Assembly: GCF_014195445.1 (NCBI RefSeq)
Contig: NZ_JACIBT010000005.1
Coordinates: 23,239 to 87,238, forward strand
Source of the DNA: Garicola koreensis
GTDB lineage: Bacteria; Actinomycetota; Actinomycetes; Actinomycetales; Micrococcaceae
DNA length: 64,000 nt
Direction of reading: 5' to 3'
The position numbers and the translations under genes are program-made. The notes beneath the pieces are model-generated. The model ran no database searches and was not told where the DNA came from. It saw only the letters and a list, made by a program, of their open reading frames with translations. Positions 20,647-21,264 of this stretch are shown here, piece after piece (position 1 is the stretch's first letter; each line of letters starts with the position of its first letter).

Positions 20647-21264
20647 ATGATGACCAGACCTGAATGCAGCATCAACGGAGTCTCCCTGATGGGCCCAGCT
20701 GTTCCGCGGCAGAACGAACTGTTCACCGCTGATGCGCTGGCTTTCCTGGCCGAGCTGCACCGCGAGTTCGGCCCCCGGATTGAAGAGCTGAACGCGGCTG
20801 TGACCCGGCAGCCCGCCAATCCGGCCGATCGCTGGAGGGCTCTGGTGGAGAAGAACCTGGCCGAGCCGCCGAGCACCTTCGTCTGCCCGCGTCGGCTGGC
20901 CGTGGAGGAGCACATGATCCTCTGCGACGGCACGGCGGTCTCAGCAGGAATCGTGGACTTCGGTCTGCACATTCACCGCAATGCGCGCAGACTGCTCAGC
21001 GAGGGCCGGGCCCCGTTCATGTCGCTGCTGGGGATGGAGAGTGAGGAGGAGCTGCAGCTGTGGAAGGACATCTTCGTCCGTTCGGAGCAGCTGCTGGACC
21101 TTCCCGACTGCTCCATCCGAGCGATCCACATGCAGGCCGGTGAGCCGGTGATGGACGACGACGAAGACGGTCAGGCAAGCAGCGCTGCGGTGCTGATGAG
21201 CCGCACCCCGTCCGCACCCGAACCGGCGGCACCGCCGCTGGCTCACGTCGGGGCAGCGGCTTAG
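20647..21264 (+). CDS. aceB: Truncated malate synthase A-like protein, probably non-catalytic
   Basis: A 205-residue open frame 45 bp after aceA, where malate synthase A (about 530 residues) is expected. Residues 11-50 match the N-terminal MSA segment (LMGPAVPRQNELFTADALAF). Residues 62-155 match a later MSA stretch: DFGLHIHRNARRLL corresponds to DFGLYFFHNA, and LQLWKDIFVRSEQLL to the LWNDVFVFAQD region. About 90-100 residues between them are missing, and just after SIRA the sequence leaves the family and ends in an acidic, Ala/Pro-rich tail. The rest of the TIM barrel with the catalytic acid and metal ligands is absent. It keeps a good ribosome site (AAGGAG) and no internal stop, so it may still be expressed. 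Confidence 0.75.
   Translation: MMTRPECSINGVSLMGPAVPRQNELFTADALAFLAELHREFGPRIEELNAAVTRQPANPADRWRALVEKNLAEPPSTFVCPRRLAVEEHMILCDGTAVSAGIVDFGLHIHRNARRLLSEGRAPFMSLLGMESEEELQLWKDIFVRSEQLLDLPDCSIRAIHMQAGEPVMDDDEDGQASSAAVLMSRTPSAPEPAAPPLAHVGAAA

Follow-up and report, generated by a model that had tools for sequence, protein, structure and literature searches.

A catalytically dead paralogue usually retains its entire fold and acts as a regulator of the active sister enzyme. Prozymes are a described example, and PMC5201418 presents the AdoMetDC prozyme of trypanosomes as a dead paralogue kept beside the active enzyme. In Euglena, a bifunctional isocitrate lyase/malate synthase is reported to link both enzymes of the glyoxylate shunt physically. 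The locus described here invites comparison with both. It lies in a 64,000-nucleotide stretch of Garicola koreensis (contig NZ_JACIBT010000005.1, positions 23,239 to 87,238 of the forward strand; hereafter the window) and contains a short gene related to malate synthase A behind the isocitrate lyase gene aceA. Compared with malate synthase A (AceB, TIGR01344; 3cux and 3cuz), the short form is missing about 92 internal and about 296 terminal residues as well as the catalytic positions. In contrast to prozymes, it is only a fragment of the barrel, and its likely partner, judged from sequence, would be the preceding enzyme of the pathway and not an active paralogue. Unlike the Euglena enzyme, it is a small protein on its own and is predicted to lack malate synthase activity. 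It is a paralogue that has lost its catalytic residues and is conserved with its pathway, as expected of a regulatory pseudoenzyme, and the best reading is a putative pseudoenzyme of the isocitrate lyase regulon.

The open reading frame (ORF) at 20647-21264 on the plus strand starts 45 bases past the aceA stop codon, encodes 205 amino acids (aa) without internal stops, and is preceded by an AAGGAG site. Pfam matches were found to MS_N (residues 11-48) and MS_TIM-barrel (residues 79-160, corresponding to profile positions 4-85 of 248), and the score against the malate synthase A equivalog TIGR01344 was 78.1 bits, below the cut-off of 594.5. In the alignment to L088, a full type-A enzyme, residue 48 corresponded to 46, W63 to W126, L71 to L134, F78 to V168, and I160 to T250. 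Alignment with full enzymes showed that the internal loss is in two parts, of approximately 65 and 27 residues, which flank a retained stretch with an invariant Trp (residue 63). After residue 160 (barrel-profile position 85), the remainder of the full enzyme is replaced by an unrelated acidic tail of 45 residues. These results bear out the original prediction of an intact frame with a ribosome-binding site, an in-frame loss of 90-100 residues, and divergence into a non-homologous tail. Its claim that the catalytic barrel is lacking holds in effect, but one third of the barrel profile is kept. In the AlphaFold model, the block mean of the predicted local distance difference test (pLDDT) was 88-97 across residues 71-160, and a strand was predicted with low confidence at residues 179-183 of the tail.

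We took the aligned Arg, Glu, and Mg-binding Asp to be the catalytic positions of malate synthase A. All three were kept in each of the 26 full-length enzymes of both types. Among 27 short sequences in the same alignment, the Arg position was occupied by Thr in 13, Ser in 10, Arg in 3, and Cys in the window copy; Glu was absent from its position in all 27, and the Asp column was gapped throughout. The short form therefore shares common descent and the fold of its retained part with malate synthase A but not the catalytic residues, and it is predicted to be catalytically dead. These 27 rows, also used for the tree, differ in part from the set of 27 genome copies counted below: L094 (N. natronophila) was added, and the frame-broken L077, the partial L007, L031, and L086, and duplicate loci were left out. 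Eleven of the 27 short proteins, which are not independent, end in Ala-Ala (window positions 21253-21261), which recalls an ssrA-type protease tag.

The short form was found in 25 of 30 Nesterenkonia genomes, including that of the window, in 27 copies. A search of 5.8 billion proteins, with candidates limited to proteins of roughly similar length, yielded 35 relatives, of which 34 were 182-222 aa long and one was 132 aa; the five named relatives were all from Nesterenkonia. Where a source database names these proteins, it calls them malate synthase, malate-synthase-family protein, or hypothetical. A scan of 84,980 species (one genome each) gave 36 loci. Twenty were short forms, all in Nesterenkonia, and at the 16 loci outside the genus the match ended by query residue 159 with 32-44% identity. 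Across 295 genomes of the family (23 Nesterenkonia), the matches listed from other genera did not reach beyond model positions 63-165 and lay in frames of at least 546 aa; those listed are ordinary full enzymes. The only broken copy among the 27 is that of G014 (N. pannonica; L077 and L086), in which several genes, including the short gene, aceB, and their neighbors, are frame-broken; this suggests sequence quality problems. G016 (N. massiliensis) has three short copies (L058, L060, and L073), with two each behind its own aceA.

The short gene is under purifying selection. The ratio of nonsynonymous to synonymous change (omega, Nei-Gojobori) was 0.04-0.22 in 16 pairs; these were picked for their closeness, have genomes in common, and are therefore not independent, and L077 was excluded. 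Pooled pN/pS was lowest in the barrel part (0.12), followed by the N-terminal part (0.17), the new tail (0.20), and the linker (0.31). In 10 pairs, omega was 0.006-0.088 for aceA and 0.043-0.219 for intact unlinked aceB, the latter including in-frame sequence upstream of the start codon. By these ranges, the short gene is approximately as constrained as intact malate synthase and less so than aceA. An omega near 1 with stops in sister strains, which had been named as the sign of simple decay, was not observed, and neither relaxed constraint nor stops nor frame breaks mark the family as pseudogenes, G014 aside. An assembly error was likewise rejected, because the short form is common to 25 of 30 genomes and has 35 database relatives.

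Next, we examined the linkage of the short gene to aceA. It stands directly behind aceA in 21 of 27 copies, and aceA or a copy of its leader lies in front of 26. The six copies away from aceA comprise one each in G003, G006, G020, G015, and G014 and the third copy of G016. In G003, G006, and G020, aceA is elsewhere with its usual neighbors and without the short gene; the orphan short genes of these genomes have a copy of the aceA leader in front, and those of G003 and G006 also have aceA-like first codons. Orphans with a leader copy at new loci are L058, L059, L075, and L076. A profile of 19 aceA leaders matched the orphan leaders of G003, G006, G020, and G016 at E values of 8e-17 to 1e-23 and that of G015 at 2.5e-6; none of these five leaders had been used to train either profile. 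It also gave weak matches near the aceA start at three sister-genus loci (L088, L089, and L091; E values of 2e-4 to 5e-3), and its reverse-strand and half-site matches (E values of 0.01-0.9) were set aside as reflecting the palindrome.

For a search of all 30 whole genomes, a second profile was trained on 22 aceA leaders, orphan leaders being excluded. With the threshold at E ≤ 0.01, it gave 33 matches in 27 genomes, which, by comparison of positions with the aceA and short-gene loci, were assigned to 28 aceA genes and to 5 short genes without aceA. No match was found elsewhere, including at unlinked aceB, among the best 112 of 218-739 first-look candidates scored per genome, a selection that may have missed a weak leader. 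No match came from G008, G012, or G028; G008 and G028 are incomplete and show no full isocitrate lyase, and G012 has aceA. The 20-base inverted repeat alone, with 2 mismatches allowed, was not specific, giving among the matches listed tens per genome, a few-fold over a reversed control. TTTGC, a simple RamB-type box, was rejected as the shared site, being present inconsistently (15 of 21 aceA upstream regions), and the leader profile was used instead. The four orphans formed one tree clade (100), and the G015 copy was elsewhere in the tree; therefore, at least two rearrangements occurred. Selection for joint expression with isocitrate lyase is more likely than a leader carried along by chance twice. 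By sequence, sharing of the aceA promoter/leader (21 of 27 copies behind aceA and 5 of the other 6 with their own leader copy) would place the short gene in the isocitrate lyase regulon. Genes for TAXI-type transporters (DctM and NMT1_3) were observed near the orphan loci L075 and L076; because the flanks of only these two loci were scanned, the transporter genes were given no weight in assigning a function.

The original prediction offered a full malate synthase elsewhere in the genome or retention of the small protein for another role. A genome search found the former, a complete malate synthase G (GlcB) of 720 aa (L001), and the latter is supported by conservation, purifying selection, and the tie to the aceA leader. 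The marker domain of malate synthase G was present in this genome only among the 30; its site (G000:C1:679540-680268; L001 and L087) is unique in the set. The other 29 genomes have A- or B-type malate synthase, which in G014 is split over two frames. Malate synthase G likely replaced another form of the enzyme in the window's genome. The assembly is 80% complete and might therefore lack a type B gene. With malate synthase G present, glyoxylate build-up for want of a malate synthase was rejected.

The arrangement in relatives points to the origin of the short gene. In other genera of the family, a full type-A aceB adjoins aceA in 24 of 24 loci fetched, all of them picked for matching the short family well. 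G012 and G021 also still carry full type A after aceA, and the order aceA, aceB, regulator in G021 puts it in the exact slot of the short gene. This aceB of G021 (L152:7448-9051), the only malate synthase gene found there, has one frame break, either real or a sequencing error. The remaining Nesterenkonia relatives have a second aceB (type B), mostly unlinked, which in G002 lies beside aceA and divergent from it. In a tree built on 169 shared columns, all short forms fell into one clade (bootstrap 100) with a long stem, joined next to G021 type A. A tree of aceA and the regulator, which was without two regulator genes (G003 and one G016 copy), joined G012 (100) and G021 (79) to the outgroups. 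It placed G002, in which the short gene is absent, inside the short-bearing group (98). One origin with one later loss is the simplest reading. The short gene descends from the aceB that sister genera keep right after aceA. The full aceB of G021 and G012 represents the ancestral state and does not point to the assembly deletion that the original prediction had considered.

We suggest, at slightly below even confidence, that the short protein is an aceB remnant behind an aceA-type leader and binds isocitrate lyase as a noncatalytic accessory subunit. The protein would be made under the leader, would be inactive in catalysis, and would bind and then tune or stabilize isocitrate lyase, perhaps through the surface by which the ancestral malate synthase met that enzyme; malate synthesis would fall to the enzyme encoded elsewhere. 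Isocitrate lyase is proposed as the partner because aceA, and not the unlinked malate synthase, is the constant companion in sequence and leader, and because even the form of malate synthase differs in the window's genome. PMC7712234 includes malate synthase among the listed isocitrate lyase partners in a fungus. It is doubtful, although conceivable, that this free-standing third of a TIM barrel docks on the preceding pathway enzyme as a dedicated regulatory subunit that controls or channels glyoxylate. Several observations weigh against binding to isocitrate lyase. The shared leader fits any role in the glyoxylate shunt, and six copies, among them the third of G016, are away from aceA. The short gene is absent from G002 (98% complete), in which aceA, its leader, and a full aceB are all present, and is therefore dispensable in one lineage; G008 and G028 have none either, but at 65% and 82% completeness. 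The G014 copy has no significant leader (E value of 0.66 with the 19-leader profile). Finally, the basal members from G029 and G001 and one G016 copy retain the catalytic Arg and are without the acidic tail, so that features differ within the short family.

The short protein might instead serve the full malate synthase encoded at another locus, as a dead regulatory subunit or chaperone like a prozyme. Its descent from malate synthase and the intact full enzyme found elsewhere in 24 of the 25 genomes (G014 having the split gene) are consistent with this, and PMC5201418 documents dead paralogues that activate their partner. We regard it as unlikely, since the gene is kept in a genome showing, at 80% completeness, only the different G form, and the leader matched no unlinked aceB among the candidates scored. 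A new role outside the glyoxylate shunt would account for the conserved new residues and tail and for the two orphan copies near TAXI-type transporter genes, but the retention of the aceA leader through at least two rearrangements makes it distinctly unlikely. It is quite improbable that the protein is a glyoxylate or acetyl-CoA sensor acting on the adjacent RamB-like regulator: the regulator gene is adjacent or close in many genomes, and a RamB protein of Paracoccus binds CoA thioesters according to PMC10370305, but the catalytic Arg is changed in 24 of 27 and the Glu in all, and in G006 and G020 the short gene moved off without the regulator, which is still at the aceA locus. A decaying pseudogene or an assembly deletion, which the truncation, the lost catalytic residues, and the broken G014 copy might suggest, is barely credible: the omega values and the shared deletions already refute it, and 27 copies in 25 genomes and 35 database relatives weigh against it as well.

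The features of the locus are listed in the table. The description as an aceA-ramB locus was correct for aceA, but the downstream gene is RamB-like and is not certified as RamB; across lineages, this regulator sits on differing sides of aceA. In the interval from aceA to the short gene, a terminator scan listed no terminator-like site, and the same scan found no sigma-70-type promoter in the region. The hairpin behind the short gene is likely the end of the aceA-short transcript.

Table. Features of the aceA locus in window coordinates
Feature	Position	Strand	Evidence
aceA-type promoter/leader	19091..19223	+	Leader profile E 1.6e-24 (first) and 1.8e-19 (second); window leader in both training sets
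Inverted repeat like TTCTTCG-n-GCGAAGAA, predicted regulator site	within leader 19091..19223	+	
aceA, isocitrate lyase, 452 aa	19243..20601	+	NF011645, 770.9 bits (cut-off 562)
AAGGAG ribosome-binding site of short gene	20632..20637	+	AAGGA or AAAGGAG similarly before many relatives' copies
Short malate-synthase-A-derived putative pseudoenzyme, 205 aa	20647..21264	+	
MS_N domain, retained, residues 11-48	20677..20790	+	Pfam
TIM barrel, retained part, residues 79-160	20881..21126	+	Pfam; pLDDT 88-97 over residues 71-160
Acidic new tail with terminal predicted strand, residues 165-186	21139..21204	+	Pooled pN/pS 0.20
Strong hairpin 3' of short gene, no T-run	21288..21327	+	z -3.85
RamB-like regulator, HTH and IrrE-like domain	21387..22865	+	NF038139, 60 bits (cut-off 700)

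No report of a truncated or pseudoenzyme malate synthase, or of the short form in Nesterenkonia, was found in the open-access library searched, in which papers on Nesterenkonia and malate synthase were judged by title and the start of the abstract. The short form is a malate synthase without both barrel flanks and the catalytic residues, yet it is selected genus-wide and locked to the promoter region of another enzyme. Malate synthase labels on such short proteins could mislead metabolic models of the host genomes. Should the short protein indeed bind isocitrate lyase, this branch-point enzyme of the glyoxylate shunt would have a natural protein regulator, and the case would exemplify how an operon neighbor turns into a subunit.
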